Shown one piece after another: positions 3,005 through 63,922 of a stretch of 64,000 nucleotides of DNA. The position numbers were made by a program, and so were the translations under genes. Below the pieces are notes generated by a model, which saw nothing but the letters and a program-made list of their open reading frames with translations, did no database searches and was not told the DNA's origin. Numbering within the stretch: the first letter of the stretch is position 1; every line of letters begins with the position of its first letter. The DNA lies in assembly GCF_013623775.1 (NCBI RefSeq), contig NZ_JABFAM010000005.1:248001-312000 (forward strand), read 5' to 3'. This DNA comes from Rufibacter sp. XAAS-G3-1 (GTDB lineage: Bacteria; Bacteroidota; Bacteroidia; Cytophagales; Hymenobacteraceae).

Positions 3005-3040
3005 GTTTTTGGCCTGTTTTGGGCAGACTAAGCCAGAAAC
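3005..3040. repeat. Hairpin repeat, degenerate copy 1
   Basis: A left arm like GTTTTTGGCCTGTTTT and a right half AGCCAGAAAC match the family described at 18225, but the centre is disrupted. It lies upstream of the helicase gene. Confidence 0.4.
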
Positions 3041-3141
3041 AAGCCTCTGGGTTTAAGCGGCGTTGGGGCAGGACAACCTTCGCGGCTAAAAACGGTTTAA
3101 ACCATGTAACAGAACAGGAGCACGCGTAAACTCAAAAGAAT

Positions 3142-3645
3142 ATGGAACGTGAAACTACCCCTAAGCGGAATAAAACTACCAGAAAGGCATCTAAGAAAAG
3201 GCTGAACAAATGGCTCCGGTCTGGCCTCAGCGGGTTGGCCGGGGCCGTTGCCGTTACCCTGGTGCATGAAAGTGTGCGCCGGTTTTACCCCAATGCCCCA
3301 CGTATGGACATTTTGGGCATGCGGGCCATTGCCAAGGGCTTGCGCTACGCGGGCCAGACTCCGCCAGACCATGGCAGACTGCACACCTGGTCTCTGGTTG
3401 GCGATATTGTCTCCAATAGCTTATACTACAGCTTAACCGGCACCGGTAAGAAAGCCTGGTGGCGCGGTACTATCCTGGGTGCGGCGGCGGGCGTAGGCGG
3501 CGTGATTTTACCAGGCCCCATGGGCTTAGGTGTGGCCCCCAGCGCCAGAACCAAACAGACCCAGGCGCTCACCATCGGCTATTACCTGCTGGCTGGTGTA
3601 GTGGCCGGTGGCGTGGCTAAGTGGCTGCGGAAGGTGAAAGTGTAA
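3142..3645 (+). CDS. Hypothetical membrane protein
   Basis: 167 residues with a very basic N-terminus (about 25 residues of Lys/Arg/Thr), a hydrophobic stretch at about 30-45 (GLSGLAGAVAVTLVH), a Gly-rich segment at about 108-135 and a last membrane segment near 145-158. I do not recognise the family. It is alone on the plus strand and convergent with the HTTM gene; hairpin repeat copy 2 sits in the gap and may terminate both. Confidence 0.65.
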   Translation: MERETTPKRNKTTRKASKKRLNKWLRSGLSGLAGAVAVTLVHESVRRFYPNAPRMDILGMRAIAKGLRYAGQTPPDHGRLHTWSLVGDIVSNSLYYSLTGTGKKAWWRGTILGAAAGVGGVILPGPMGLGVAPSARTKQTQALTIGYYLLAGVVAGGVAKWLRKVKV

Positions 3646-3668
3646 GTAGTGGATGACTTTCAATAAAA

Positions 3669-3710
3669 GCCGTTTAGGGGCTGTTTTTCCAAAAGTAGCC
3701 CCTAAACGGC
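3669..3710. repeat. Hairpin repeat, copy 2
   Basis: Arms GCCGTTTAGGGGCT and AGCCCCTAAACGGC are perfectly complementary around a T/A-rich centre. It fills the gap between two convergent genes and touches the HTTM stop codon. Confidence 0.9.
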
Positions 3711-5215
3711 TACGGCTTGCAATGACAGAGCACCTCGCGCTTTACGGGCTCTGTTTTGTAGTTTGGGAGCGAGACTTCCTTCATGTAGATCACTGACAGC
3801 TCGTTGATTTGTTCCTGGGGAGGGTGAGACTCATTCCAGCGGCGCAGCAGGTAAAAACAGTAGTAAGGCCGCATGTACTCATTGGGCACAAACAGGTAAT
3901 TCTCTGAGTATTTACGCCAGCGGTCGTTTTTGAAGAGGCTCACCACCGAGGCAGGTTTGGCGGTATCTGGTTCTTTGCCCTGTTGGTTTAGATCAACTTT
4001 ATGCTGGCTGTTGGTGATTCCTTCCAGCACGTACCAGCCATCTTCTTTGAAAACGTTGGGGGCGAACATGCTCCAGTTCTGGTCTAACCTGGGCATCAGG
4101 GTGGCCCAGTGCAGATTAGCCGGTACCTGGAAAGAAGGCTTGCCCAGGGTACTCAGGTTCCACCAAAAAGCCAGCACCAAGCAAGCCAGCACCAGACCCT
4201 CTCTCATGTATTTGAGGTGGTAATCTTCTGCCCAGCGCGGCTGATTCCACTTCACCTTCATCTGCAGTTCTACCGGGGAGCGCATGCCTTTCCCCAGCCT
4301 GGCCCAGCGTTTATGCAGCTTGTTGTACCCTGCCCGCAGATACCGGTCTACCGTGTCCATAACCGGAGTAGGCAGCAACCCTATCACCGCCGAGATACTG
4401 ATCAGGTAAAACAAACCCACAAACAAAGACAGACTGATGCCTATGTGCAGGCCCGCAATGACTACAAAGAACAGCATCCTGAACCACGTGGTACGCCACG
4501 GAATGAGCAACACAAAGGGCAGCCACAGCTCTGCAAAGTACGTGGCGTGCGTAAGCTGCTTCATGAGCAGCGGGAACTGGTAGAGAATTCGCCCCCCGGG
4601 CATCAGGATCTGGTCAATGCTGAGGGCGTAGTAAAGGGCGGTGCCGTCAGTAGTCCAGTCGGGCCCGCTTTTCAGTAATGCGGTGAACACGTACACCCAG
4701 GCCACCTGCAGAAGATAGGCCGCTGAGGCCATGCTGAGGTAGTGGGGCGATGTTTCTGAGGTAAGGGAACGGCGCGCATCTACGGAATAATGCCGGTGCC
4801 AGGGCAAAAACATTCCCCAGAAAAGCAGCATCCGGAGCAGGCTGTCGCCAGATTGGGTGATGAGCGGGTTGCGGTTGTGCAGCGAGACCAGCAGAATCCA
4901 GGAAATGAAGGTGGCCCAGCGGGTGTGATACCCCAGCAGAAGGCAAATGGCCGCCGCCGCCGCAAGAACAAAGAGAACCAGCTGAAACTGCCACAGGCCG
5001 CTTAGCGCATGCAAAGAGAAGAAGTACTGGTTCCAGGCATTGGCATGCAGCACATGCAAAGGCAACACGCCCATGTTGGAATAATGCGCCTCCATATCAG
5101 AAGCCCTGATGCCGATGTCCAATAACAAGACACTGGCTACCCATATCCGCATAAAAGAAAGTGCCCGGGTATCTGTATAGAATACGCGATGCAGATACTG
5201 TCTAAGTAGATGCAT
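3710..5215 (-). CDS. HTTM domain membrane protein
   Basis: 501 residues from the ATG at 5213-5215. The longer open frame would start upstream across a terminator hairpin, so the later ATG is preferred. It has many membrane segments and the motif SLHNRNPLI-x-GD-LLR typical of the HTTM domain, related to vitamin K-dependent gamma-carboxylase. After the last membrane helix (about 365) comes a ~130-residue polar C-terminal domain rich in Trp, Tyr and Asn. Bacterial HTTM proteins are membrane proteins of unknown reaction. It is downstream of, and separated by a terminator from, the Gly-Thr repeat lipoprotein gene. Confidence 0.85.
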   Translation of the reverse strand: MHLLRQYLHRVFYTDTRALSFMRIWVASVLLLDIGIRASDMEAHYSNMGVLPLHVLHANAWNQYFFSLHALSGLWQFQLVLFVLAAAAAICLLLGYHTRWATFISWILLVSLHNRNPLITQSGDSLLRMLLFWGMFLPWHRHYSVDARRSLTSETSPHYLSMASAAYLLQVAWVYVFTALLKSGPDWTTDGTALYYALSIDQILMPGGRILYQFPLLMKQLTHATYFAELWLPFVLLIPWRTTWFRMLFFVVIAGLHIGISLSLFVGLFYLISISAVIGLLPTPVMDTVDRYLRAGYNKLHKRWARLGKGMRSPVELQMKVKWNQPRWAEDYHLKYMREGLVLACLVLAFWWNLSTLGKPSFQVPANLHWATLMPRLDQNWSMFAPNVFKEDGWYVLEGITNSQHKVDLNQQGKEPDTAKPASVVSLFKNDRWRKYSENYLFVPNEYMRPYYCFYLLRRWNESHPPQEQINELSVIYMKEVSLPNYKTEPVKREVLCHCKP

Positions 5216-5245
5216 AGAGAGGAGGGTTGAAAAAAGAGGGAAAAC

Positions 5246-5279
5246 AGAAAAGGCAAAACCATTGGGCCTTGCCTTTTCT
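5246..5279 (-). terminator. Hairpin terminator after the Gly-Thr repeat gene
   Basis: Arms AGAAAAGGCAA (5246-5256) and TTGCCTTTTCT (5269-5279) are perfectly complementary. On the minus strand a T-rich tract follows. Its position argues that the HTTM gene starts after it. Confidence 0.75.
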
Positions 5280-5319
5280 TCCATATCACAACGCTTCTAA
5301 GAACGTTTATTCCAATTTA

Positions 5320-5745: not shown

Positions 5746-5926
5746 AGTTTTGACAGGTTAATGAATGGTGATAAATGGTTTACTTTTTCAAGTTCATCGT
5801 TTTACGCACAGTTCTTAGAAAGGTGCCATATTTGAATGAAAATTATTCATTTGCAGAGAAGTTCTTTAACGATTACGTACTTTTACGCGTACCAATACAG
5901 ACCTTCCTCTATAATCCAAAGGCTTT

Positions 5927-6331: not shown

Positions 6332-6660
6332 GATGCCACGCATAAAAGGCATTGAGTAGCTTGGGGCTTTACTCCAGACGGCTATCAATGTCCCAAATCT
6401 TGCCTTCCTGGCAGGGTGAATGCGCGGTAAGGTAAACCGATAAACTGTTTTGGGGCTCATTTCCTGAAAACAGGCCCAAAACAGAGCGTATCTTCCCCAA
6501 TAGAAACGGACGGAAACCATTTTGCCTACATTTTCTCTAGTTGATCTATAGAGATAACTGTTTTTAACCCGATTTTGTGAAAAGAAGTCAGAAACGGCAC
6601 TTACTTTTACGCCCTGCTTTGTGACGGCAGGCTTATTCATTTTAATTTGATAGAAACGTA
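6332..6660. other. Non-coding gap before the symporter gene
   Basis: No convincing gene. It holds hairpin repeat copy 3 and the upstream region of the symporter, which starts with GTG. A minus-strand open frame here runs through the neighbouring gene and is not supported. Confidence 0.6.
6445..6484. repeat. Hairpin repeat, copy 3
   Basis: CTGTTTTGGGGCT left arm and AGGCCCAAAACAG right arm, with a TTTCCTGAAAA centre. Confidence 0.85.
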
Positions 6661-8064: not shown

Positions 8065-8109
8065 TTTGCGTTTCGGGGCTGTTTTTAGAAAAATAGCCCC
8101 GAAACGCAA
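8065..8109. repeat. Hairpin repeat, copy 4
   Basis: Arms TTTGCGTTTCGGGGCT and AGCCCCGAAACGCAAA are perfect over 16 bp. It lies 24 bp after the symporter stop. Confidence 0.92.
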
Positions 8110-11225: not shown

Positions 11226-11265
11226 GCGTTTCAGGGCTGGTTTCTGAAAAGCAGGCCCGAAACGG
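11226..11265. repeat. Hairpin repeat, copy 5
   Basis: GCGTTTCAGGGCTG left arm, CAGGCCCGAAACGG right arm. Confidence 0.85.
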
Positions 11266-11388: not shown

Positions 11389-11428
11389 GCGTTTCGGGAC
11401 TGTTTTCTGGAAAATAGCCCTGAAACGT
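11389..11428. repeat. Hairpin repeat, copy 6
   Basis: GCGTTTCGGGACTGTTTT left arm, AAAATAGCCCTGAAACGT right arm. Confidence 0.85.
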
Positions 11429-11435
11429 AACCGCT

Positions 11436-11553
11436 CTTCCGGAGTTCTACTCCGGAAGAAACCTGCCGGGGAGTTCTACTCCCCTTTCTTGCCCGTGGCT
11501 CCCGGCGGAGTGGAACTCCGCAGCAGACAAGTTCGGGAGTAGAACTCCCGAAC
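11436..11553 (-). repeat. Four-box palindrome element, copy 1
   Basis: Four perfect palindromes with 3-nt loops share the core GGAGT-NNN-ACTCC: 11436-11458 (10-bp arms CTTCCGGAGT/ACTCCGGAAG), 11468-11484 (GGGGAGT/ACTCCCC), 11505-11521 (GCGGAGT/ACTCCGC), 11531-11553 (GTTCGGGAGT/ACTCCCGAAC). A spacer with GCCCGTGGCTCCC lies between boxes 2 and 3. The reverse complement matches the cluster at 63672-63788 in order and spacing. Confidence 0.9.
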
Positions 11554-11626
11554 AGCAAGAACCATAGTAGCAGCACTAGCCGTCATCCCTTACCTCTTTA
11601 AAGGGGAGCGAACGTGCAATGCAGGT

Positions 11627-11666
11627 GCGTTTCAGACCCAATTTCCAGAAAATAGCCCTGAAACGC
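11627..11666. repeat. Hairpin repeat, copy 7
   Basis: GCGTTTCAG left end and CCCTGAAACGC right end; it abuts the stop codon of the helicase gene at 11668. Confidence 0.8.
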
Positions 11667-14616: not shown

Positions 14617-14713
14617 CAGGATCTCTTTCACACGTCTAGCAGAGGGCAAAGGTACTCTAAGCTAAGGGATTTGTGTCAAAATAGTACTGGATGCTAAGCT
14701 GGTTAGAGGGGAT

Positions 14714-14751
14714 TGTTTTGAGCCTGTTTTCTGGAAGTAGGCTGAAAACTG
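14714..14751. repeat. Hairpin repeat, copy 8
   Basis: TGTTTTGAGCCTGTTTT left arm, GTAGGCTGAAAACTG right arm. Confidence 0.75.
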
Positions 14752-14769
14752 ATAAAGACTTTGCCGGTA

Positions 14770-14841
14770 CTATGGCGCGGATTTACTTCCGTGACTCTCG
14801 CTGACGGTTCAGAAAGTCACGGAAGTAAATCCGCGCCATAG
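14770..14841. repeat. 26-bp perfect inverted repeat
   Basis: Arms 14770-14795 and 14816-14841 are fully complementary (outer end CTATGGCGCGG, inner end TTCCGTGAC) around a 20-nt spacer. A shorter related sequence, GCGCGGAAGTAACTTCC, occurs at about 23460. Confidence 0.9.
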
Positions 14842-14860
14842 AAAAGATAAGAAGGGGATT

Positions 14861-14900
14861 TGTTTCAAGCCTCATTTCTACAAAACACCCCTAAAACGAA
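14861..14900. repeat. Hairpin repeat, copy 9
   Basis: TGTTTCAAGCCTCATTTC left half and CACCCCTAAAACGA right half; pairing is imperfect. Confidence 0.6.
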
Positions 14901-16715: not shown

Positions 16716-16756
16716 GCGTTTATGGCCTCTTTTAGGTAAAACAGCCTCAAAACAGC
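16716..16756. repeat. Hairpin repeat, copy 10
   Basis: GCGTTTATGGCCTCTTTT left arm, AAAACAGCCTCAAAACAGC right arm; upstream of marR. Confidence 0.65.
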
Positions 16757-17882: not shown

Positions 17883-17921
17883 GCGTTTTCGAGCTGTTCT
17901 CAGGAAAAGAGGCCGAAAACA
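17883..17921. repeat. Hairpin repeat, copy 11
   Basis: GCGTTTTCGAGCTGTTCTC left arm, AAAAGAGGCCGAAAACAGG right arm. Confidence 0.7.
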
Positions 17922-18224
17922 GGCTTTGCAAAGGTACGGGGATGGAAACAACCGTCTTGTCCAGAGTCGGTTTCTGGAAGTAAACGGGTGTAACAGGACA
18001 AGTTGAACTATCTAGTTTCCAGGAGGGCAAGAAGAGATGTTGTTTGTGCCAGTCAATTGATAGTTGAGTTATTATATGAATTTTCTGGCGAAAGCGTAGG
18101 CTTGTGTCCACGTATATTCCAGAGCAGCCGGGAGTATGCTGGCGCCAGGGAATCTTCCTGCTTAGGGAAGGCTTTTCGTTCGGTTTGGGATACTTCCTAC
18201 CCAACCTGAGCAGGGTGCTACTTT

Positions 18225-18264
18225 CCGTTTAGGGGCTGTTTTTCCAAAAACAGCCCCTAAACGG
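18225..18264. repeat. Hairpin repeat, copy 12 (type copy)
   Basis: Perfect 19-bp arms: CCGTTTAGGGGCTGTTTTT, a 2-nt loop CC, then the exact complement. This is the reference for the family: an outer G/C end, GTTT, a variable paired block of 3-5 bp, GGCT or GCCT, then T4-5, a short loop, and the mirror image. About 35 copies were found by eye. Variable positions change in both arms together: TAGGGG/CCCCTA here, TCGGGG/CCCCGA at 8065, TCTGGG/CCCAGA at 23396, TCTGGC/GCCAGA at 57804 and 63883. The T/A-rich inner stem and position after stop codons fit a terminator role; the copy number fits a REP/BIME-like family. Confidence 0.95.
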
Positions 18265-23395: not shown

Positions 23396-23453
23396 AGCCA
23401 CCATGCGTTTCTGGGCTGTTTTCCGCAAAACAGCCCAGAAACGCATGGTGGCT
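23396..23453. repeat. Hairpin repeat, copy 13 (longest arms)
   Basis: Perfect 27-bp arms, 23396-23422 and 23427-23453, with a 4-nt loop CCGC. The core is GCGTTTCTGGGCTGTTTT and its complement; the outer AGCCACCAT/ATGGTGGCT extends the usual arm by 9 bp. Confidence 0.95.
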
Positions 23454-23552
23454 AACTATAGCGCGGAAGTAACTTCCATGAATTACGAACTGACCTTACG
23501 CACTGCTGGTGGTGGTTCCCGGCGAGTCTGGAGACTCGCTCCTTTGATTCTA

Positions 23553-23583
23553 AACCTGTGAGGTCTCCAAGACCTCACAGGTT
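23553..23583. repeat. Palindrome AACCTGTGAGGTC / GACCTCACAGGTT
   Basis: 13-bp perfect arms with a 5-nt loop TCCAA. From memory, similar dyads occur between genes in other Bacteroidota. Only one clear copy is seen in this window. Confidence 0.75.
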
Positions 23584-23586
23584 TCT

Positions 23587-23627
23587 GCGTTTCTGGCCCG
23601 TTTTCCGAAAAATAGCCCAAAAACGCA
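23587..23627. repeat. Hairpin repeat, copy 14
   Basis: GCGTTTCTGGCCCGTTTT left arm, AATAGCCCAAAAACGC right arm. Confidence 0.85.
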
Positions 23628-23706
23628 TCGGCGGGGCTCCCCTCTCCACGGGAGAGGGGCTGGGGGTGAGGTCTCTCTTTCAGATTGTTCTGGAGAAGGC
23701 AAGTGT

Positions 23707-23742
23707 GTTTTTTGGCTCAGTTCCAGAAAAGAGCCCGAAAAC
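23707..23742. repeat. Hairpin repeat, copy 15
   Basis: GTTTTTTGGCTCAG left arm, GAGCCCGAAAAC right arm. Confidence 0.75.
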
Positions 23743-23772
23743 AGAAAACAATCAGCAACCAACAATCAACAA

Positions 23773-25716: not shown

Positions 25717-25985
25717 GTTCTAAGGTAAGAACCGCAAATTTACTGAACCTGACGCAGATATAGAAGCAAGGTGTAGAGGAGGGAAGCAACTTGTGAGGGA
25801 AGGCGAATTCTGGGGAAGATGTGAACCCAGGTAAGGGCTTTGCTTTCTGAGCGAAAGATTTGAGTTACAGGATGGGCTTTCTTGCCGCGTGCTGGTAACC
25901 ACCCCCAGCCCCTAAAGTAGGAGGGGAGCTTCTGTTCTGCCCCTCAAACTGATGTTGCGTAGACGCTCGCAGACCCTCCCGGGCG

Positions 25986-26088
25986 CTACGAGGTCTTTTG
26001 AGTAGGCGATATTCGTTAGTACCCGCAATACGTGGATCAGCAGGCGTCAACACTCCCCTTCGCCCCCTTCAAAGGGGGAGTATCTGCT
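25986..26088 (+). repeat. Mosaic repeat flanking structured element A
   Basis: A 23-bp exact match (25986-26008) to the complement of 40712-40734, and a 35-bp exact match (26054-26088, containing TTCGCCCCCTTCAAAGGG) to the complement of 40579-40613. Order differs between the two sites, so blocks have been shuffled. Confidence 0.85.
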
Positions 26089-26101
26089 AACGTAAGGGTA
26101 A

Positions 26102-26142
26102 CGTGTTCTAAAGGAGATTTAGGGAAAACAGGCTTGAAACGG
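26102..26142. repeat. Hairpin repeat, degenerate copy 16
   Basis: Only the right arm (AAAACAGGCTTGAAACGG) is well kept. Confidence 0.4.
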
Positions 26143-26319
26143 AATTGGCAGAGACACTCACAGGCTTGGTAGACGCTACGAGGTCACGGTATGGCGGAGC
26201 GAAACAGAACCCACCCCTCCCCCTCCAAGGAGGGGAATACGGCTTTACAGGGCAATAAGGACAATATAACTTGTACAACCAATAGCTGCCACTGCCCTTG
26301 CTGCAATGGCCTTTACTCC

Positions 26320-26540
26320 TTTCCCCAGTTCTAGTCTTCCCCGAGCGCGCCTCGCTTTTGGCCCTGGACAGACAGCTACTAAGAGAAGAGAACTTCCCAG
26401 GCCGAAAGGGCAGTGCGAGAGGGAAAGACGGGGCCTCGCGGCCGTGAGCGCATACCGCCAAAGCTGGAACAACACAGCACTTGCACCCACGAAACGAACG
26501 GACAAGCCAAGGGAACAGCAAACGGCGTGCACCTGCTAAT
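26320..26540 (-). repeat. ~220-bp structured repeat element, copy A
   Basis: Shares long blocks with copies B (40315-40535, other strand) and C (50885-51104). Plus-strand segments GTCTTCCCC (26334-26342) and GGGAAAGAC (26421-26429), CTCGC (26351) and GCGAG (26415), and GGCCCTGG (26360) and CCAGGCC form nested stems around a variable loop. The minus-strand transcript keeps all nine outer pairs (one as G-U); the plus-strand one would have a C-A mismatch. An open frame crosses all three copies, but copies differ mostly at first and second codon positions, which speaks against protein selection. Confidence 0.8.
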
Positions 26541-27879: not shown

Positions 27880-27887
27880 AGCGTTTC

Positions 27888-27926
27888 TGTTTTAAGGCTG
27901 ATTTCCTAAAAATAGGCCTAAAGCGG
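27888..27926. repeat. Hairpin repeat, copy 18
   Basis: TGTTTTAAGGCTGATTTCC left, AATAGGCCTAAAGCGG right; a few bases after a stop codon. Confidence 0.7.
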
Positions 27927-28121: not shown

Positions 28122-28133
28122 GAGCGGTGTTTC

Positions 28134-28171
28134 TGTTTTGAGGCTATTTTCCTGAAAATAGGCCTAAAACG
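28134..28171. repeat. Hairpin repeat, copy 19
   Basis: TGTTTTGAGGCTATTTTCC left, GAAAATAGGCCTAAAACG right. Confidence 0.85.
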
Positions 28172-28226
28172 CTTTCTGCTGTTCACCAGGCAGCTTCCTG
28201 AGCCAAGCCAGAAACGGTTTTCTCCC

Positions 28227-29270: not shown

Positions 29271-29311
29271 CTGTTTTAGGGCTGTTTTCCCGAAAACGGG
29301 CTCAAAACCGG
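29271..29311. repeat. Hairpin repeat, copy 20
   Basis: CTGTTTTAGGGCTGTTTTC left, GAAAACGGGCTCAAAACCGG right. Confidence 0.8.
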
Positions 29312-29388: not shown

Positions 29389-29428
29389 CCGTTTCTGGGG
29401 CATTTTCTGAAAAACAGGCCCCAAACCG
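29389..29428. repeat. Hairpin repeat, copy 21
   Basis: CCGTTTCTGGGGCATTTTC left, AAAACAGGCCCCAAACCG right. Confidence 0.8.
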
Positions 29429-34650: not shown

Positions 34651-34790
34651 TAAATTCTGTATTTCTTCAAAGTCAGGTGATATATAGAAATTACTTTCTC
34701 TACATGTCTATCAGATTTTACTCATAAGTTTGATAGCTTTTCAAGTTACTGGATTAAGGTCAAGAAAGAAAAGAATCCAACTTCCATTTC

Positions 34791-34823
34791 CCGCCTCTTT
34801 CCTCAAAACAACCCCTAAAACGC
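34791..34823. repeat. Hairpin repeat, half copy 22
   Basis: Only the right half is clear (AAAACAACCCCTAAAACGC). It lies just before the methyltransferase gene and creates a longer spurious open frame there. Confidence 0.5.
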
Positions 34824-34864: not shown

Positions 34865-35617
34865 GTGAAACTTCTCCGCAAAATATTGGTCAAGGCGCTC
34901 GGGTTTGAGGGCTATCTGCGTCTGGTCAGCCGGATGTACATCATCATGGTGGGCTCGGGCCGGGGCCGTGAAAAGTACCCAGAGCTGTTCTTCCTGCGCA
35001 AAATCATCCGTCCGGGGTATACGTGCCTGGACATCGGCGCGAACCTGGGCTACTATTCCACTTTCCTGTCCAGACTGGCCGGGCCGAACGGGAAAGTGCT
35101 GGCCGTGGAGCCGGTGCCGTTGTTCGGGCGCATCTGGCGAGACAACGTGCGGGCCAGCGGGGTAGACAACCTCACGTTGCTGCCGTATGCGTTGGGCGGC
35201 GAGAACATCCCCATTGAGATGGGCACGCCCGTGCGCGACGGCCTGGTACACCACGGCATGACCAAAATCGCTAGTTCGGCGCAGGAGCAATACGCTCAGA
35301 CCTACCAGGTGGAAATGCGCGTCCCAGATGAACTGTTCGCCGATTTAGACCAACTGGATTTTATTAAATGCGACGTGGAAGGCTATGAACACCAGGTGTT
35401 TGCCTATTTGCAGGAAACTATAAAACGGCACAAGCCGTTGATTCAGACAGAGCTCAACGGCACAGAGAACCGCCGCGCCGTGGTAGACATACTCACCCGT
35501 TTAGGCTATGCCGTGTACACGTTATCGCCTAAACACACGTTATCTGCCTGTAGCCCCCAAGAAATTGACGCCTACCAGGGCGGCGACTTTTACTTTAAAC
35601 CAAACCCATACGCCTAG
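34865..35617 (+). CDS. FkbM family methyltransferase
   Basis: 250 residues from the GTG at 34865 (reading VKLLRKILVKALG); an upstream ATG at 34730 would add 45 residues coded by repeat DNA and is less likely. SAM-binding motif CLDIGANLGYYS, then KVLAVEPVP and DFIKCDVEGYEHQVF fit FkbM-type O-methyltransferases, often used on polysaccharides or secondary metabolites. Its stop overlaps the next start by one base (TAGTG), so the two are coupled. Confidence 0.87.
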   Translation: MKLLRKILVKALGFEGYLRLVSRMYIIMVGSGRGREKYPELFFLRKIIRPGYTCLDIGANLGYYSTFLSRLAGPNGKVLAVEPVPLFGRIWRDNVRASGVDNLTLLPYALGGENIPIEMGTPVRDGLVHHGMTKIASSAQEQYAQTYQVEMRVPDELFADLDQLDFIKCDVEGYEHQVFAYLQETIKRHKPLIQTELNGTENRRAVVDILTRLGYAVYTLSPKHTLSACSPQEIDAYQGGDFYFKPNPYA

Positions 35618-38413: not shown

Positions 38414-38457
38414 GCCCGTTTTGGGTTTGTTTTAGCAGAAACAGGTCAAAAACGGGC
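38414..38457. repeat. Hairpin repeat, copy 23
   Basis: GCCCGTTTTGGGTTTGTTTT left, AAACAGGTCAAAAACGGGC right; 17 bp after the yfhO stop. Confidence 0.75.
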
Positions 38458-39455: not shown

Positions 39456-39496
39456 CTCTTTCTAGGCTACTTTCCTGAAAACTGCCATAAAACGAC
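39456..39496. repeat. Hairpin repeat, degenerate copy 24
   Basis: TTTCTAGGCTACTTTCCTG left and AAAACTGCCATAAAACG right; partial pairing. Confidence 0.5.
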
Positions 39497-42560: not shown

Positions 42561-42600
42561 CTGTTTTAGGCATCTATTCTGAAAAACAGGCTTAAAACGG
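42561..42600. repeat. Hairpin repeat, copy 25
   Basis: CTGTTTTAGGCATCTATTC left, GAAAAACAGGCTTAAAACGG right; starts directly after a stop codon. Confidence 0.7.
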
Positions 42601-42760: not shown

Positions 42761-45400
42761 ATGTTTTCTTTAAAATTGAGTCTGTTTTCCGTGAAGCGTA
42801 AAAATCTTCTTTACGTCTTGTGCGGCTGGTTTTGCCTTCTAACCGCCGGGGCCGAGGCGGGCGTGCTGAAAGGAAAAGTGACCGATGAAAAAGGAGAGGG
42901 GCTGGCCTTCGCGACGGTGTATCTGCAGGGTTCTACCGTGGGCTCCACCACCAACGAGCAGGGCGATTATCAGTTGATGGTAGACCCGGGCAAGCATACG
43001 GTGGTGTTTCAGTATGTGGGCTACAAAAGCCAGACCCGGGCCATAGAAGTAGTAGAGGAGGAAACCCCGAAGCCACTGGTGCTAAACGTACAACTGCTCC
43101 CCGATGTCTACAACCTGAACGAGGTGCGCGTAAGCCTCAGCGGTAAGAATCCGGCGTACGGCATCATGGAGCAGGTCATCGCGAAGCGCGAGTACCATTT
43201 AAAGGAAGTGCAGGCGTTTACCGCGCAGGTGTACGTGAAAGGGTTGCAGCGGCTTATCAACGTGCCCAAGCGCGTGCTGGGCATCATGAAGGTTCCGGCG
43301 GGGCTGAAACCGGGCATTTTGTACCTGTCAGAGTCGGTGTCTGAGATGAGTTTCATGCAGCCGGGCAAGTACCGCGAGCGGATGATTTCGTCTAAGGTAA
43401 GCGGAAACAGCCGGGCCTTCAGCTTTAACCAGGCGTCTGAGTTTAACGTCAATTTTTACCAGAACCTGGTCAAAGCGCAAGGCGTGAACGAACGCGGGTT
43501 TGTCTCGCCGTTGGCCAACAATGCCCTATTCTTCTACAAGTATGAACTGGTGGGCAGCAGCCAGAACAACGGTCACCTCATCCACCGCATCAAGGTCATT
43601 CCCAAACGCAAAACCGACCCGGTGGTGACGGGCTACCTGTACATTGTGGACGGTTCCTGGCGCTTGCAGAGCCTGAACCTGTACGTGACCAAAGACCAGC
43701 AGATTGAGTTTGTAGACACCCTGCGCATCACGCAGCAGTTTACCCCGGCCGCCGGCAACGTGTGGGTGCTGCAATCCCAGAAATTCACGTTTGACGTGGA
43801 GGGCTACGGGTTTAAAGGCAACGGCTATTTTATGGCCGTTTACAGCAAATACCGCGTAAAACCGGCTCCGTTCGTGAAGCAGCCCCCAGTGCCTGCCACG
43901 CCCGCCGCCCCGGCCCCCGTGGTGAGTGCGCCCGTGGTAGCCGCCGCGCCCGCGCCCAAACCTACCCGAAAAGAACGGAAAGCCCTGCGCAATGCGCCTC
44001 CGCCCAACGGCGTACCCAATGCCGAGTTCTTCAAGAAAAAAGAGGTATTGCTCATTGAGAAAGACGCCAACACCCGCGATAGTGCTTATTGGTCCGAAAT
44101 TAGGCCCGTGCCCCTCACCGAGGAGGAGGTAGTAGATTACCACACCAAAGACAGCCTACAGGTCATCAAAGAATCCAAGCCCTACCAAGACTCGCTGGAC
44201 CAGAAAAACAACAAGTTCTCCGTCACGGGTCTGCTCCTCTCGGGCTATTCTTACCGGAATTCGTTTGAGCGCACCCGCTTCAGCATGGAGCCGGTCACGC
44301 GCATCTGGCAGTACAACACCGTAGAAGGCTTGGTGGCCAACCTGCGCATCGCCTACACCAAACAATTTGAAGACCGCCGCAGCTACACCATCGCGCCCAC
44401 GGTACGGTACGGGTTCAGCAACCAGAAAGCCCAGGCGAAACTACAGGGCACCTACAACTATGATTTGGTGAAGCGCCGGGCAGTGGGCTTTGAAGGCGGC
44501 CGGTTTGTAAGCCAGTTCAACGCGACAGAGCCGATTACCCCTTTTGTGAACACCGTGTACACGCTGCTGCTCAAAGAAAATTACCAAAAGCTGTACCAAC
44601 GGGAGTACCTGCGCCTGTGGCACAACCGCGAGCTGGTCAACGGCCTGTCGGCGACGTTCATGGTAGACTACGCCCAGCGCGAAATGCTATTCAACACCAC
44701 AGATTACGTGCTGCGCGACCGCGTTTCTAGGGTGTTTACGCCAAACGAGCCGCAAAACGCTGAGCTCGCCACTACCGCCTTCCCGCGGCACGAAGCGTTG
44801 ACCGCCACCGTTTCGCTTTCCTATCGGCCGGGGGCCGAATACATCTCCCACCCCGACCGCAAGATTAACCTCGGCTCCAAGTGGCCCACTTTCAACTTCT
44901 ATTACCGCAAAGGCCTTTCCAACGTGCTGGGCAGCGATGTAGACTATGATTTTGTGTCGGTGGGCATCAGCGATTACCTGCAATTAGGCCTGCTGGGCGC
45001 GAGCGAGTACTCGGCCAGCGTGGGTACTTTCTGGCGGAAAAACCAGCTATACTTCATGGATTTCAAGCATTTCTCGGGCAACCGCACCATTCTGTCCGGC
45101 GATTTCAGCGGCTTTCAGTTACTGGACTACTACCAGTACAGTACCCAGAAAACGTACATTGAAGCCCACTACAGCCATCATTTCAACGGCTTTATCCTGA
45201 ACAAAGTCCCGCTGCTGCGCAAACTGAAATGGCAGGAAGTTGGCAGCGTCAATTACCTGCACACCAATGTCGCCGGTCATTACCTGGAACTGGGCGTGGG
45301 GCTGGAGCACCTGTTCAAGGTATTCCGGGTAGATTTTGTGACCGGTTTCCAGGAGCGCCAGAAAGTAAGCTCCGGCATTAGGGTAGGGTACGGGTTTTAA
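42761..45400 (+). CDS. DUF5686 outer-membrane protein with carboxypeptidase-like regulatory domain
   Basis: 879 residues from the ATG at 42761 (MFSLKLSLFSVKRKNLLYVL); ATG 42740 and TTG 42701 are alternatives. After the signal peptide comes a CarboxypepD_reg-like fold (GVLKGKVTDEKGEGLAFATV to YVGYKSQTRAIEV), then a DUF5686 domain with an Ala/Pro-rich insert (about 385-410), and a C-terminal beta-barrel ending in aromatic GIRVGYGF, a signal for outer-membrane insertion. Similar proteins are common in Bacteroidota beside TonB-dependent systems; function unknown. Stop codon lies inside hairpin repeat copy 26. Confidence 0.88.
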   Translation: MFSLKLSLFSVKRKNLLYVLCGWFCLLTAGAEAGVLKGKVTDEKGEGLAFATVYLQGSTVGSTTNEQGDYQLMVDPGKHTVVFQYVGYKSQTRAIEVVEEETPKPLVLNVQLLPDVYNLNEVRVSLSGKNPAYGIMEQVIAKREYHLKEVQAFTAQVYVKGLQRLINVPKRVLGIMKVPAGLKPGILYLSESVSEMSFMQPGKYRERMISSKVSGNSRAFSFNQASEFNVNFYQNLVKAQGVNERGFVSPLANNALFFYKYELVGSSQNNGHLIHRIKVIPKRKTDPVVTGYLYIVDGSWRLQSLNLYVTKDQQIEFVDTLRITQQFTPAAGNVWVLQSQKFTFDVEGYGFKGNGYFMAVYSKYRVKPAPFVKQPPVPATPAAPAPVVSAPVVAAAPAPKPTRKERKALRNAPPPNGVPNAEFFKKKEVLLIEKDANTRDSAYWSEIRPVPLTEEEVVDYHTKDSLQVIKESKPYQDSLDQKNNKFSVTGLLLSGYSYRNSFERTRFSMEPVTRIWQYNTVEGLVANLRIAYTKQFEDRRSYTIAPTVRYGFSNQKAQAKLQGTYNYDLVKRRAVGFEGGRFVSQFNATEPITPFVNTVYTLLLKENYQKLYQREYLRLWHNRELVNGLSATFMVDYAQREMLFNTTDYVLRDRVSRVFTPNEPQNAELATTAFPRHEALTATVSLSYRPGAEYISHPDRKINLGSKWPTFNFYYRKGLSNVLGSDVDYDFVSVGISDYLQLGLLGASEYSASVGTFWRKNQLYFMDFKHFSGNRTILSGDFSGFQLLDYYQYSTQKTYIEAHYSHHFNGFILNKVPLLRKLKWQEVGSVNYLHTNVAGHYLELGVGLEHLFKVFRVDFVTGFQERQKVSSGIRVGYGF

Positions 45401-45431
45401 GCCTCTTTTCCTGGAAATAGGCCTAAAACAG
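45393..45431. repeat. Hairpin repeat, copy 26
   Basis: GGTTTTAAGCCTCTTTTCC left, GAAATAGGCCTAAAAC right. The left arm supplies the TAA stop of the gene before it. Confidence 0.8.
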
Positions 45432-45848: not shown

Positions 45849-45887
45849 ACCGTTTTAGCCCTGTTTTCGTGAAAAGAGCCGCAAAAC
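45849..45887. repeat. Hairpin repeat, copy 27
   Basis: CCGTTTTAGCCCTGTTTTC left, GAAAAGAGCCGCAAAAC right; 5 bp after the VOC stop, in a convergent gap. Confidence 0.75.
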
Positions 45888-45914
45888 AAAGCCGCAGCTT
45901 ACGCCGCGGGCTTT
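45888..45914. terminator. Terminator hairpin between convergent genes
   Basis: AAAGCCGC pairs with GCGGGCTTT with one bulge; in tandem with hairpin repeat copy 27. Confidence 0.6.
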
Positions 45915-48075: not shown

Positions 48076-48113
48076 CTGTTTTGGCCGTGTTTTCCAGAAA
48101 ACAGCCCCAAATC
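48076..48113. repeat. Hairpin repeat, copy 29
   Basis: CTGTTTTGGCCGTGTTTTCC left, GAAAACAGCCCCAAATC right; in the divergent gap before murF-alr. Confidence 0.7.
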
Positions 48114-48173
48114 ATTTTCATTCCCCTTCGGCCCACGGCCGAAAGTCAGCGTCACGGACTAGGTCTTCTGTTG

Positions 48174-48200: not shown

Positions 48201-50672
48201 ATGTTTAGTTTCAAAGAAATTGCCCAGGTAATGGGAGGCATGTTGGTGCAGCACACAGGAGAGTATCCCGTGCAGCACCTGGTCACCGACAGCCGTAAAA
48301 TCGCCAATGCCGCTTCTTCGGTGTTTTTCGCCATCCGGGGCGAATTCCATGACGGGCACCAGTACCTGTCTGAACTGTATGCGGCCGGGGTACGGCAGTT
48401 TGTGGTGGAAGACGCGTCGGGCATCATGGATTTGACCAGTTACCCGCAGGCCAACGTGTTGCTGGTGAGTGACAGCATTCAGGCCATGCAGCGGCTGGCG
48501 GCTTACCATCGGCGTAAGTTCAGCATTCCGGTCGTGGGCATTACGGGCAGCAACGCCAAAACCATTGTCAAAGAGTGGCTCTCGCAGTTGTTGAGCGTGT
48601 CTGAACGGGTGGTCAAAAGCCCCAGGAGCTACAATTCCCAGATTGGCGTGCCGCTCTCGGTGTGGCAAATGAACGAAAGCCATACCATTGGCGTGTTTGA
48701 GGCCGGTATCTCCCAGCCAGACGAGATGGAGCACCTGGCCAGCGTGCTGCAACCTACCCTAGGCGTGTTTACCAACCTGGGCTCGGCGCACGACGAGGGT
48801 TTTACGTCCCAAACCCAGAAACTGCACGAAAAGCTGAAGCTGTTCGCGCACGTGACCCAACTCATTTACTGTGCCGACCAACCCGTGGTGCGCGAAACCA
48901 TTCAGGCCGAAGGTTTGCCCGGTTTTGCCTGGAGTACGCAGGAACATCCGGCGGCGCAGGTGCAGTTGAAGGTGCTGGAAATGCACCACGGCAAAACCAA
49001 AGTCCGGTTCCGGTACAGAGGAAACGGTCAGGATTTGACACTGCCCTTCGCCGATGAGGCTTCCCTAGAAAACGCCCTCCATTGCCTAGCCGTGTTGCTC
49101 TACCTGGGCGTGAAGCCCGAAGAACTGGGCAGTCGGTTTGAACGCTTGATGCCCGTAGCCATGCGCCTGGAGCGCAAAGAAGCCATCAACGGTTGCTACG
49201 TCATTGATGACACGTATAACAATGACCTGGCCGGGCTGCGCATCGCGCTGGATGTACTGGGCCAACAGGCTCGGCGGGGTCGGAAAACCCTCATTGTCTC
49301 AGATTTACTGGAGGCCGGGCTGGAAGAACACGCGCTCTACCAGCAGGTGGCGCAGGAAATCACGGCCCGGGGCGTAGACCGCGTCATCGGGATTGGCGAC
49401 ATCATTACCCGCCACCAGGACTTTTTCCCGAAGGGCAGCGAGTTCTACCTCGGCACCGATTCCTTTCTGGGCCAGCTCCGCTCCGAGACCTTCCGGCAGG
49501 AAACCATTCTGGTGAAAGGCGCGCGCGTATTCCACTTTGAGAAAATTGTGGCCGCCCTGCAACAGCAGGTACACGGCACCATGCTGGAGGTGAACCTAGA
49601 TGCGCTGGTGCACAACCTCAATTATTACCGCGCCAAAGTGCCCGCCCCAACCAAAATCATGGTCATGGTCAAAGCCTTCGCCTACGGCGCAGGCGCGTAC
49701 GAGATTGCCAACCTGCTGCAGTTCCACCGCGTGGATTATTTGGCCGTGGCCTATGCCGATGAGGGCATTTCGCTGCGCGAGCACGGCATCACGCTGCCCA
49801 TCATGGTGATGAACCCCAGCCCAGACAGCTTCCTGAAAATGCAGCAGTACAACCTAGAGCCCGAGATTTACTCCTCAGATTTACTGCATCGGTTTTTAGA
49901 CTATTTTCCCCAAAAGAGCCCTAAAACGCCACCCATCCACCTGAAACTGGATACCGGCATGCACCGCCTGGGGTTTGACGCCGAAGAGTTGGAAGAGGCC
50001 TTGGCTGTATTAGACCAAATGCCCCACGTGCGGGTGCAAAGCGTCTTCAGCCATTTGGCTGGTGCCGATGAAGCTTTATACAATGATTTCACGCAGGAGC
50101 AGATAACCCAATTCCAGCAGATGGCCACGCGGGTAGAGAAAGAACTGGGCTATTCGGTGACCAAGCATATCCTTAACTCGGCGGGCATTGTGCGGTTTGG
50201 CGAGGAAGCCGCTTTTGACATGGTGCGGCTGGGCATCGGCTTGTACGGCATTGAATCGGCGGGGCAGGAGCAAAGCAGTTTGCAGACCGTGGGCCAGCTC
50301 AAAACCACCGTTTCTCAGGTGAAATCCGTCAAAGCGGGCGAAACCGTGGGCTACAGCCGGCGCGGAGTAGCCGCGCAGGACAAGTACACCGCCACCATCG
50401 CCATCGGCTACGCCGACGGGTACGACCGCCGCTTCGGGAACGGCGTGGGTGAGGTGCTCATCAACGGGCAGCGCGCGCCCATCATCGGAAACGTCTGCAT
50501 GGACATGTGTATGGTGGATGTAACTGGGTTAGACGTGCGGGCCGGAGATGAGGTGCTGGTATTTGGCGAAGGACTGCCGCTTACCGAACTGGCGGCCCGT
50601 ATAGGAACCATTCCGTATGAATTACTCACCAACGTGAGCACGCGGGTGAAGCGGGTGTTCTTTAATGAGTAG
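48201..50672 (+). CDS. Bifunctional MurF / alanine racemase fusion with an in-frame hairpin repeat
   Basis: 823 residues. The N-terminal half is MurF (UDP-MurNAc-tripeptide:D-Ala-D-Ala ligase; GITGSNAKTIVKEWL ATP loop near 115, KSPRSYNSQIGVPLS, VIDDTYNNDLAGL). The C-terminal half from ~460 is a PLP alanine racemase (MLEVNLDALVHNLNYYR, MVMVKAFAYGAG with the PLP lysine near 490, KLDTGMHRLGF, AIGYADGYDRR). The fusion couples D-alanine supply to peptidoglycan precursor assembly and is typical of Bacteroidota. Nucleotides 49890-49930 are a member of the hairpin repeat family read as RFLDYFPQKSPKTP between two conserved blocks, so a mobile repeat appears to code for a surface loop. Confidence 0.93.
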   Translation: MFSFKEIAQVMGGMLVQHTGEYPVQHLVTDSRKIANAASSVFFAIRGEFHDGHQYLSELYAAGVRQFVVEDASGIMDLTSYPQANVLLVSDSIQAMQRLAAYHRRKFSIPVVGITGSNAKTIVKEWLSQLLSVSERVVKSPRSYNSQIGVPLSVWQMNESHTIGVFEAGISQPDEMEHLASVLQPTLGVFTNLGSAHDEGFTSQTQKLHEKLKLFAHVTQLIYCADQPVVRETIQAEGLPGFAWSTQEHPAAQVQLKVLEMHHGKTKVRFRYRGNGQDLTLPFADEASLENALHCLAVLLYLGVKPEELGSRFERLMPVAMRLERKEAINGCYVIDDTYNNDLAGLRIALDVLGQQARRGRKTLIVSDLLEAGLEEHALYQQVAQEITARGVDRVIGIGDIITRHQDFFPKGSEFYLGTDSFLGQLRSETFRQETILVKGARVFHFEKIVAALQQQVHGTMLEVNLDALVHNLNYYRAKVPAPTKIMVMVKAFAYGAGAYEIANLLQFHRVDYLAVAYADEGISLREHGITLPIMVMNPSPDSFLKMQQYNLEPEIYSSDLLHRFLDYFPQKSPKTPPIHLKLDTGMHRLGFDAEELEEALAVLDQMPHVRVQSVFSHLAGADEALYNDFTQEQITQFQQMATRVEKELGYSVTKHILNSAGIVRFGEEAAFDMVRLGIGLYGIESAGQEQSSLQTVGQLKTTVSQVKSVKAGETVGYSRRGVAAQDKYTATIAIGYADGYDRRFGNGVGEVLINGQRAPIIGNVCMDMCMVDVTGLDVRAGDEVLVFGEGLPLTELAARIGTIPYELLTNVSTRVKRVFFNE
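49890..49930. repeat. Hairpin repeat, copy 30, inside the racemase coding region
   Basis: GGTTTTTAGACTATTTTCC left, AAAAGAGCCCTAAAACGCC right; the reading frame passes through and codes for about 14 residues. Confidence 0.8.
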
Positions 50673-50711
50673 CGTTTTAGGGCTCATTTGCGAAAACGAG
50701 CCCCAAAACGC
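50672..50711. repeat. Hairpin repeat, copy 31
   Basis: GCGTTTTAGGGCTC left and GAGCCCCAAAACGC right with one wobble; begins on the last base of the murF-alr stop codon. Confidence 0.9.
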
Positions 50712-57803: not shown

Positions 57804-57843
57804 GCGTTTCTGGCCTGTTTTCCTGAAAACGGGCCAGAAACGT
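57804..57843. repeat. Hairpin repeat, copy 32
   Basis: GCGTTTCTGGCCTGTTTTC left, GAAAACGGGCCAGAAACGT right. Confidence 0.92.
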
Positions 57844-57883: not shown

Positions 57884-57917
57884 GCGTTTTCGGGCTGTTT
57901 TTTGGAAAGTAGCCTTA
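57884..57917. repeat. Hairpin repeat, truncated copy 33
   Basis: GCGTTTTCGGGCTGTTTTTT left arm intact; right arm stops after GTAGCCTT. Confidence 0.6.
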
Positions 57918-58073
57918 ATCAAGTCCCTTCCCGTTGAACTATTCACCTAACCAATAGGTTAATTCATATATAGAAAACCTTGCGTCCACGGGTTCTGTAG
58001 CTGCGGGTTTTGCGGATTTTCCTCCATGAAATTTCTATTGATAATATCTTAAAGCGCACATAATACGCTGTTG

Positions 58074-59910: not shown

Positions 59911-59961
59911 TGGTGCGCTTTATGTGCCGGGTTATTTGACCTTACTGGAGGGTGGGTGCCA

Positions 59962-59999
59962 TTTTTGGCCTATTTTCCGGGAAACAGGGCAAAAACGCG
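59962..59999. repeat. Hairpin repeat, copy 34
   Basis: TTTTTGGCCTATTTTCC left, GGAAACAGGGCAAAAACGCG right. It lies between nusA and infB inside the operon, so it must be read through or act as a partial terminator or processing site. Confidence 0.75.
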
Positions 60000-63000: not shown

Positions 63001-63382
63001 CGATATCCGTCTGTACTCCATCATCTACAACGCCATCAATGAGCTGAAAGACGCCATGGAAGGTATGTTGGCGCCAACCGTACAAGAGGTGGTAGTTGCC
63101 AACGTAGAAGTACGCGAGGTGTTCAAGATCACCAAGGTGGGAACCATTGCCGGCTGTATGGTCACAGATGGCACCATTACCCGTAACTCCAAGATACGTC
63201 TGGTGCGCGATGGTATTGTGGTACACTCCGGTGAGATCCTGGCCCTGAAACGCTTCAAAGACGATGCCTCAGAAGTGAGACAAGGCTACGAGTGCGGTGT
63301 CAGCATCAAGAACTTCAACGATCTTCAGCAGGGCGACATTATTGAAGCCTACGAAGAGCGTGAGATCAAACGGACGCTGTAA
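60083..63382 (+). CDS. infB: Translation initiation factor IF-2
   Basis: 1099 residues from the ATG at 60083. An N-terminal HTH-like IF2_N ([21 protein letters not shown]) is followed by a ~200-residue Ala/Pro-rich region (about 95-305), a Gly/Gln/Arg-rich region (about 325-465), a second IF2_N ([24 protein letters not shown]), and the G domain with [18 protein letters not shown] and NKVDKP. Domains II-IV follow to the end. The Ala/Pro and Gly linkers are long but of a kind common in Bacteroidota. It places initiator tRNA on the ribosome. The operon ends here at a terminator. Confidence 0.96.
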
Positions 63383-63418
63383 TCCAGAAGAGATCAACTG
63401 TTCCTATCAACCAAAGAG

Positions 63419-63442
63419 AGCCCCGCCTGAGAAGGTGGGGCT
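63419..63442 (+). terminator. rimP-nusA-infB operon terminator
   Basis: AGCCCCGCCT pairs with AGGTGGGGCT (one wobble) and is followed by TTTTTT. Confidence 0.92.
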
Positions 63443-63463
63443 TTTTTGTGCTTAGCACCTTAG

Positions 63464-63502
63464 CCTTTAAGGCTGATTTTCTGAAAAGAGGCCGAAAACA
63501 GC
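63464..63502. repeat. Hairpin repeat, copy 35
   Basis: CCTTTAAGGCTGATTTTC left, GAAAAGAGGCCGAAAACAGC right. Confidence 0.7.
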
Positions 63503-63671
63503 GTGGTGCGCCTTTGAAGAAGGTGGTGGAGAGCAGAACCTATCCTCCACGAGGGGAATTCTTCTACTAGCGTTCTACTACCAGTTCTCTATAGCACGGA
63601 TTTTCGCCGGAGACACCTCACCCCAGTTCCTCCTCCCATCTAAGCTTGTAGGGAAAATTTCTTTTCTTGCT

Positions 63672-63788
63672 GTTCGGGAGTTCTACTCCTGAACCTGCCT
63701 GCCGGGGAGTTCCACTCCGCGGGGAGCCACGGGTAAAAGAAGGGGAGTGGAACTCCCCGGCAATAGGCTTCTGGAGTGGAACTCCGAA
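63672..63788 (+). repeat. Four-box palindrome element, copy 3
   Basis: Boxes at 63672-63694 (GTTCGGGAGT / ACTCCTGAAC), 63704-63720 (GGGGAGT / ACTCCGC), 63742-63758 (GGGGAGT / ACTCCCC) and 63769-63788 (TTCTGGAGT / ACTCCGAA), with GAGCCACGGG between the second and third. Order and spacing match the complement of 11436-11553. Confidence 0.9.
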
Positions 63789-63882
63789 AGAACGGTTTGA
63801 TTCTCTGGAATCTTTTGGAAATAAATAACCGTTCCTTTTTCCTACAAGATGAGCCTCCCACGGAGAGGGGAGCCCCGCTGAT

Positions 63883-63922
63883 GCGTTTCTGGCCTGTTTT
63901 ACTTAAAACAGGCCAGAAACGC
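63883..63922. repeat. Hairpin repeat, copy 36
   Basis: Perfect 18-bp arms GCGTTTCTGGCCTGTTTT and complement with a 4-nt loop ACTT. Confidence 0.95.

Follow-up and report, generated by a model that had tools for sequence, protein, structure and literature searches.

The 64-kb stretch of Rufibacter DNA analysed here (the window) carries a dense family of short inverted repeats, and the question that it raises is whether these repeats are kept for the hairpins that they could form or for their sequence as double-stranded DNA. A first-pass annotation had counted about 36 copies. Scanning with a template of the element and counting a copy at a score of at least 30 of 48, we found 38, at coordinates within a few bases of the earlier ones, compared with 1, 0 and 0 in three shuffled windows; at gathering scores, no Rfam model matched the window. 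The element is a dyad of exactly 40 bp, made of an 18-bp arm, a 4-bp centre and a second 18-bp arm, and its centre has four bases in 34 of the 38 window copies and three in the other four. The excess over chance, which the annotation had left to a wider scan, is borne out in 400 kb of the same contig, where 242 copies score at least 30 (5–8 in shuffles), with sharp 40-bp borders and a 4-base centre in 204; extrapolated from these 400 kb, the genome would hold about 2,600–3,100 copies. The half-site consensus is about SYGTTTTNGGNCTGTTTT (18 bp), and two half-sites stand head to head. Inverted half-sites at a spacer of 4 number 166 in this genome and 84 and 92 in two syntenic relatives, about 86% identical to each other (G017 and G022, respectively), whereas spacers of 3 and 5 account for no more than 12 and 17 and everted and direct arrangements occur 0–4 times per spacing. 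The position profile is symmetric, and conserved letters are absent beyond the 40 bp. Four T/A tracts are helically phased (phasor at 10.5 bp of 7.1–8.2, compared with 3.2–3.3 for block-shuffled elements; the phasor peaks at 9.5–10 bp).

In the window, 34 of the 38 copies are not inside predicted genes, in keeping with the annotation's description of a dense, mostly extragenic family biased to gene 3′ ends; the other four (at 35497, 38846, 44721 and 49890) may be chance matches. Many copies had been placed close to stop codons, and the gene context agrees: 27887..27926 (score 35) lies 7 bp after a stop, 42561..42600 (36) follows directly (0 bp), 45850..45889 (35; convergent) comes after 5 bp and 57804..57843 (44) after 4 bp, while 45392..45431 (36) overlaps a gene end by 9 bp and 50672..50711 (42) overlaps the last base of a stop codon. 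A further copy, 11627..11666 (39), is 1 bp from the 3′ end of a minus-strand gene, and 23705..23744 (35) is 28 bp from a gene 3′ end. Convergent gaps also hold 3670..3709 (42), which abuts the 3′ end of a minus-strand gene, 28133..28172 (38) and 8068..8107 (46), whose orthologous gap is occupied in 10 of the 11 relatives tabulated. Tandem gaps hold 6445..6484 (39), the weak copy 6558..6597 (31; CM 32.5 bits), 11226..11265 (41), 11389..11428 (42; followed by a dispersed repeat of ~130 bp), 38416..38455 (38; 19 bp after a stop) and 59959..59998 (38; gap of ~190 bp). Divergent gaps contain 3003..3042 (34; CM 38.3 bits), 48076..48115 (36) and, as had been claimed, 29271..29310 (37) and 29389..29428 (35). 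The copies with a 3-base centre are 14713..14751 (33), 63463..63501 (33) and the weak 39457..39495 (31) and 57884..57922 (31); further elements lie at 14860..14899 (34), 16716..16755 (37), 17883..17922 (37) and 23587..23626 (42). The three copies described as perfect, 18225..18264 (46), 23405..23444 (48) and 63883..63922 (48), each have 18/18 pairs, and the palindrome of the second extends ~9–11 bp into both flanks. Two weak copies, 26103..26142 (30; 9/18 pairs) and 34784..34823 (30; 8/18 pairs), are possibly due to chance.

The same placement holds on a larger scale. In the genome of the window, 174 of 194 elements (score of at least 32) lie wholly outside predicted genes. Elements within −15 to +20 bp of a stop codon number 47/155 in this genome, 29/72 in G017 and 27/79 in G022, where random placement would give 11, 18 and 15%, respectively. 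Gaps of at least 80 bp downstream of genes are occupied in 107/172, 68/97 and 70/101 cases (about a third are empty), and divergent gaps of that size in 12/41, 10/22 and 13/24; the deficit of divergent relative to 3′ gaps is not significant in G022 (p = 0.23). In the two relatives 66% of the gaps of at least 80 bp hold an element, mostly a single copy: the 82 elements of G017 are spread over 78 of 119 gaps (46.3 ± 3.5 occupied gaps expected), with two or more in only four (15.5 expected), and the 93 elements of G022 over 83 of 125 gaps (57.8 ± 3.4 expected), with two or more in nine (21.9 expected). The genome of the window shows no such depletion (43 gaps with at least two copies, 39.3 expected).

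The annotation had described the arms as covarying and concluded that structure is selected. As a count, the covariation is there: among 27 aligned window copies, 43 cells are changed on both sides, compared with 26.3 in shuffles (none of 500 reaches 43), and no shuffle attains the observed covariation score. Pairs that show one or more such two-sided changes are, on the other hand, not in excess (6 versus 6.8). We then measured arm complementarity on copies from a scan that uses no pairing, with swapped arms as the control. When detection ignores pairing, the two arms prove independent: complementarity is 5.48 in G017 (5.59 with arms swapped) and 5.64 in G022 (6.01, s.d. 0.10), i.e. slightly fewer pairs in the latter, and in the genome of the window the excess is confined to a near-perfect subset. 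Compensated changes in place, among 42 orthologue pairs, number 20 (16.3 ± 3.6 expected). Pairing kept by compensatory change, as expected of a functional RNA hairpin, is thus seen neither in the two relatives nor in the bulk of the copies here, and the claim of a selected structure does not stand.

The apparent covariation stems from this minority of copies. In many of the near-perfect ones complementarity continues into unrelated flanks, an indication of template switching during replication and not of selected pairing. After dropping all 16 elements whose flanks are also found elsewhere, an uninterrupted palindrome continues at least 5 bp beyond the element in 7 of 13 near-perfect copies, compared with 2/42 and 0/114 among the less perfect; when 10 of the 16 flank-repeated elements are dropped, 10 of 16 near-perfect copies are extended. 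Judging from their form, many near-perfect copies look as if one arm and its flank had been rewritten as the complement of the other arm. An extension at C25:7694 was discounted, since the copy concerned is part of a longer dispersed repeat. Quasipalindrome correction by template switching is known from work on Escherichia coli, and the present copies resemble it in their perfect palindromes extended into unrelated flanks and in a mirrored gene end. This mirrored coding end is a single locus, whose stop codon is not specific to the lineage; the remaining evidence there is one letter found only in the genome of the window. Such correction is a mutational process acting on the sites and is not why they are kept, but here it mimics family-wide covariation. 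If, as these copies suggest, template switching can yield covariation, a positive R-scape-type test of dispersed palindromes does not necessarily reveal an RNA structure under selection.

What is conserved can be seen at orthologous sites of G017 and G022, which were mapped whether or not the element was called in the second species. The T/A-tract columns diverge by only 6.8 and 7.6%, whereas the variable columns differ by 46% and the flanks by 49%; 44/45 and 47/58 orthologues align with at most eight gap columns. There are 44 elements in place, and 7 and 16 present in one species only; among the one-species cases listed, none shows a clean 40-bp empty site. The element thus consists of two like half-sites at a fixed spacing, conserved in place in this one species pair, as a dyad site should be. 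Selection acts on the letters of the element and on its spacing.

How does this bear on the view of the annotation, namely that an RNA hairpin in the 3′ UTR terminates transcription or protects the mRNA, with its pairing under selection? The excess within 20 bp behind stop codons, the foldable arms and the covariation in the window all speak for it, and the elements resemble intrinsic terminators as inverted repeats near stop codons. They are, however, symmetric dyads without a U-tract (T makes up 16–30% of positions 41–48, with no T-run at the borders), rigid in sequence and in a centre of four bases, and they coexist with canonical terminators. Indeed, they often lie within 20 bp of such terminators, 23 downstream (~7.3 expected) and 20 upstream (~6.7 expected), pooled over three genomes, two of them syntenic, with a bidirectional terminator entering both the data and the control once for each strand. 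Gene ends with an element have canonical terminators no less often than those without (37/139 versus 18/72 in the genome of the window, 33/89 versus 3/31 in G017 and 29/92 versus 4/32 in G022), and their rate in five sister genera is similar (24–42%), so that a replacement of terminators by the elements was rejected; the terminator role proposed earlier finds no support here. The arm profiles are identical whatever the direction of transcription, and GU and AC mispairs are balanced (230 versus 237), although terminators, the positive control, gave only a weak signal themselves (21:10 and 29:24), and this flat asymmetry leaves room for a role in RNA. With arms paired no better than swapped ones outside the near-perfect subset, we regard a selected RNA hairpin as distinctly unlikely. 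A cruciform or single-stranded DNA hairpin, recognized by its structure in the manner of REP/RAYT or of integron attC sites, which are structure-recognized hairpins, would fit the lack of strand bias, and the extended palindromes suggest that hairpins do form at times during replication; but it too predicts that pairing is conserved, which the bulk of the copies do not show, and in G022 pairing falls even slightly below that of swapped arms; we consider it very unlikely. Least of all do we expect the repeats to be uptake signals of natural transformation that biased uptake has enriched, despite the genome-wide occurrence, the bias to gene ends and the species ‘dialects’. Uptake signals, as in Haemophilus or Neisseria, act as single words, abundant in genes too, whereas here only 11 of 194 elements are more than half coding, and 172 of 184 half-sites (at most one mismatch) sit within dyads, with single non-palindromic copies nearly absent (12 of 184 outside the 40-mers); on these half-site counts a DNA uptake word was rejected.

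A more serious alternative is a REP-like mobile repeat, a hairpin whose copies were dispersed in the past by some enzyme, unknown or lost, and are now mostly relics without a cellular role. REPINs have lineage-specific consensus sequences, and the copy number, extragenic sites, genus restriction and lineage consensus of the present family all resemble REP/BIME/REPIN populations; a family of thousands of copies must also somehow have spread. According to PMC3733652 and PMC6006769, REPs are short extragenic palindromes in many copies, with hypothesized roles in supercoiling, termination and mRNA stability; the former defines them by an unpaired GTAG or CGTC tag at one end, and the latter describes atypical REPs of Bacteroidetes beside subclass 2.6 TnpA-Y1 genes, without the GT[AG]G tag and with copies elsewhere in the genome. 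The elements are short extragenic palindromes in high copy number, and the REP-like character claimed for them stands to that extent, but their 400-kb profile shows no GTAG or CGTC tag at one end, and the pairing in the bulk of the copies is not maintained by selection. They share with the atypical REPs the phylum, the tagless structure and the copies elsewhere. The annotation had called for a search for a RAYT/TnpA-REP gene, and we detected one Y1/RAYT-like gene in this genome; it is flanked by its own inverted repeats of 74 and 38 nt, not by the 40-mers. Of 45 Y1 places in the genus (15 of 16 genomes), the 30 examined have a mean of 1.03 elements within 700 bp, compared with 0.97–1.10 around control genes, and G017 has the family with no Y1 gene detected, so that a RAYT as the mobilizer was rejected. 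Some gaps are filled in only one of the two relatives (7 and 16), and at one boundary followed across the genus the element is present in 9 of 15 relatives and missing in 6, although its absence is not a clean 40-bp step. Neighbours sharing a gap also resemble each other more closely than random pairs do (mean distance 11.6 versus 13.4), and 3 of 13 pairs at an arm distance of 2 share the loop; otherwise similarity of the arms does not go with similarity of the loops. Among the loop-4 copies (score of at least 32) in the 400 kb no two have identical arms, and near-perfect copies occur as often in gaps with one copy (16/83) as in gaps with several (17/98), which speaks against recent copying. 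Relics should decay, yet the T/A tracts are conserved in place against strongly diverged surroundings, and occupied gaps mostly hold one copy, evenly spread, in two species. A population of mobile relics is therefore unlikely, although clearly less so than a selected RNA hairpin.

The family is found in all 16 Rufibacter genomes searched, whereas among 134 genomes from five other genera of the same bacterial family only three have a match, one each. A family of the same kind in the sister genera was not apparent in 80-kb samples of one genome each (n = 5), a sampling that is not exhaustive, which gave terminator-like palindromes and 0–1 scored 40-mers instead. Within the genus, the arm consensus drifts from species to species, so that a binder would need either to co-evolve with thousands of sites or to tolerate their variation. 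HU copy number does not differ between Rufibacter and its sister genera, which gives no hint of an HU expansion as the binder, and a likeness of the inner core to parS-type sites was dropped because positions 14 and 15 vary.

We favour, at about even odds (roughly 0.5), a reading of the element as a double-stranded dyad site for a putative protein, marking the ends of transcription units; the possibility of DNA-level roles, raised earlier, is supported. The four phased T/A tracts should curve the DNA, and the putative protein would bind the 40-bp dyad, most likely as a symmetric dimer or tetramer. Usually one site would be kept at most gene boundaries, beside stop codons and ordinary terminators, and the complex would be a transcription-unit boundary whichever side it is approached from, either as a roadblock to read-through or as a topological or nucleoid anchor. 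Weighing against this reading are the empty third of the 3′ gaps, the copies in divergent gaps, the undepleted multi-copy gaps in the genome of the window, the boundary where 6 of 15 relatives lack the element and the drifting arm consensus. Conservation in place and a spacing far evener than chance make a bacterial boundary mark at the level of DNA a hypothesis open to test.

On the tests run, what keeps a repeat that resembles textbook REP hairpins is thus its letters and spacing, not its ability to fold, and the near-perfect copies suggest template switching as a possible source of covariation within a repeat family. More tentatively, and with confidence well below even, one may wonder whether Rufibacter has a genome-wide boundary system in which a putative protein on a bent 40-bp dyad at most transcription-unit ends, as a rule one to a gap, insulates neighbouring units from both sides. 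If true, this would be a bacterial analogue of roadblock or insulator proteins, with thousands of sites drifting between species together with their binder.

The 40-bp dyad repeat proved denser and more orderly than the first-pass annotation had described. A symmetric-template scan (score ≥30) found 38 copies in the window, compared with 1, 0 and 0 in shuffled windows, bearing out the dense family claimed there; two 18-bp arms enclose a centre of 4 bp in 34 copies and of 3 bp in the remaining four. The excess over chance extends to 400 kb of the same contig, with 242 copies at this threshold and five to eight in shuffles. Among these 242 copies the centre has four bases in 204, the borders are sharp and no strongly conserved letters occur outside the 40 bp. 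Extrapolation to the 5.3-Mb genome gives about 2600 (score ≥32) to about 3100 copies. Rfam returned no match to the repeat in the window.

Each of the 16 genus genomes has the strict palindromic pattern, with 10 to 1006 matches, and three of the 134 genomes from the family's other genera have it once each; the reversed control pattern gave 0 matches in all 150. In an order-level scan of 291 genomes, many copies were found only in the four drawn from this genus; 11 non-genus genomes had one or two matches, and the reversed control matched eight genomes. Of the 80 named loci among the matches listed, 77 are from Rufibacter and three from Sabulibacter ruber. The arm consensus is species-dependent, for example ...GGGCTCATTT in one relative (G048) versus GTTTAGGGGCTC in another (G045).

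Two syntenic relatives, G017 and G022, are colinear across about 220 kb. Elements were called in one species and the other was measured regardless of score, with eight elements per direction falling outside the comparison in gaps too long to align. The T/A-tract columns differ by 6.8% and 7.6% in the two directions, compared with 46% for the most variable element columns and 49% for the flanks. Of the aligned orthologous elements, 44 of 45 and 47 of 58 need at most eight gap columns, and one and seven elements are wholly absent from the other species. Inverted half-sites at a spacer of 4 number 166 in XAAS-G3-1, 84 in G017 and 92 in G022; apart from spacers of 3 and 5, almost none occur at any other spacing or in another orientation. 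The T/A tracts are in helical phase. These features match what is expected of a double-stranded dyad site, and a putative protein would bind it.

The first-pass annotation had also held that the paired structure is selected. The window copies do covary, in a set for which the detection score itself rewards pairing. A scan free of pairing, using the conserved letters only, retrieved 166, 84 and 92 copies in XAAS-G3-1, G017 and G022, in which the nine other pairs could then be tested. Arm complementarity was not above that of swapped arms, the chance control, in G017 (5.48 versus 5.59) or in G022 (5.64 versus 6.01, s.d. 0.10). Complementarity in the G022 set (L046, L109–L118) falls a little short of the swapped control, as though perfect palindromes were disfavoured. 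In XAAS-G3-1 the value is 5.17 versus 4.28, but the bulk of copies (six or fewer of nine pairs) shows no excess (4.09 versus 4.04), the covariation beyond chance being limited to a near-perfect class of 48 copies with at least seven pairs, compared with 12.6 expected by swapping. Single clean compensations exist, such as one site in G063 versus G045, and across the 42 orthologous pairs there are 20 compensated double changes versus 16.3 ± 3.6 expected. Selection for structure is thus not supported. GU and AC mispairs on the sense strand are equal (170:162), as they are when pooled over tandem gaps (230:237), a measure by which the terminator controls are themselves weak (21:10 and 29:24). Arm independence, the symmetric profile and the rigid centre together argue for a reading at the DNA level.

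In near-perfect copies, complementarity continues beyond the element into the flanks. After dropping all 16 XAAS-G3-1 elements with flanks that match other places in the 400 kb, at least five further uninterrupted pairs were found in seven of 13 copies with at least 17 pairs, in two of 42 middling copies and in none of 114 imperfect ones; with only ten of the 16 dropped, the fractions are 10/16, 2/45 and 0/114. The corresponding fractions are 2/7, 1/39 and 0/46 in G017, 1/7, 0/44 and 1/47 in G022, and 5/22, 2/28 and 0/54 in 13 other relatives. At the site C25:150119, a gene's coding end forms one flank and a mirror copy of that end forms the other. Nine of 15 relatives have the element at this boundary, most with a full or partial mirror, though not G048 or G017; no mirror was seen in the six relatives without the element. 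The mirror is common to several species and therefore old or recurrent. One gene-end letter found only in XAAS-G3-1 is repeated in its mirror, a minor but direct indication that rewriting took place recently. Template switching during replication at a quasipalindrome yields such mirrored extensions, and the covariation would then be largely mutational.

The first-pass annotation had seen no REP-associated transposase in the window, such as the RAYT genes that mobilize REP palindromes. One Y1/RAYT-like gene was detected in XAAS-G3-1 (L009:1258–1824, minus strand, 188 aa), and inverted repeats of its own, 74 and 38 nt long, lie on either side. Among the 16 genus genomes, 15 have a Y1 match and G017 has none. 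Near 30 of 45 Y1 places the mean number of elements is 1.03, compared with 1.10, 0.97 and 1.03 near control genes, that is, no enrichment. We describe the family as REP-like, as had been proposed, but not as a REP, because two defining features tested, the tag and an associated RAYT gene (the latter at 30 of 45 Y1 places), were not found.

Other repeats were seen as well. Directly after the element at 11389, a dispersed repeat of about 130 bp (11431–11560) recurs in at least 12 other places in the genome at 88–92% identity, with copies in G060, G048 and others. A palindrome of about 75 bp with 32-bp arms (14768–14843) probably belongs to a second family of hairpin repeats in this genus; similar repeats occur in G032, G042 and G012, and a region at about L017:9989–10064 matches many places on both strands, some shared with this palindrome. 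Dispersed repeats at 25898–26400 and 23548–23672 have copies elsewhere in XAAS-G3-1 and in relatives, mostly about 77–88% identical. A composite repeat of about 130–150 bp (L010:7672–7826), present in at least 15 other places in the genome, contains a 40-mer with a 22-bp extended palindrome, and a repeat of about 85 bp (L010:8391–8480) occurs in at least 18 places in G048, at least 17 in G060 and others elsewhere.

Placement relative to genes was assessed with a simple custom gene caller, which may miss small genes and may get some 'divergent' gaps wrong. In gaps of at least 80 bp, element density is about 2.2 per kb in tandem and convergent gaps (XAAS-G3-1 and G017; about 2.7 in G022) versus 0.9, 1.0 and 1.6 per kb in divergent gaps of XAAS-G3-1, G017 and G022. 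The difference in occupancy is significant in XAAS-G3-1 (p = 0.0002) and G017 (p = 0.045), and not in G022 (p = 0.23). Between 30 and 40% of elements lie within −15 to +20 bp of a stop codon, compared with 11–18% under random placement. Elements also sit close to canonical terminators, on either side of them, and do not take their place. Of the 3′ gaps of at least 80 bp, 107/172, 68/97 and 70/101 are occupied in XAAS-G3-1, G017 and G022; tandem gaps below 80 bp rarely are (4/68, 4/47 and 2/44). Elements are spread over gaps far more evenly than chance in G017 and G022, mostly one per occupied gap. In XAAS-G3-1, 119 of all 213 gaps are occupied (95.6 ± 4.8 expected), multi-copy gaps are not rarer than chance and two or more copies per gap are frequent. 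We consider it about an even bet (probability roughly 0.5) that the element is a genus-specific DNA boundary site. A more novel proposal, that a genome-wide boundary protein acts at these elements, is rather unlikely.
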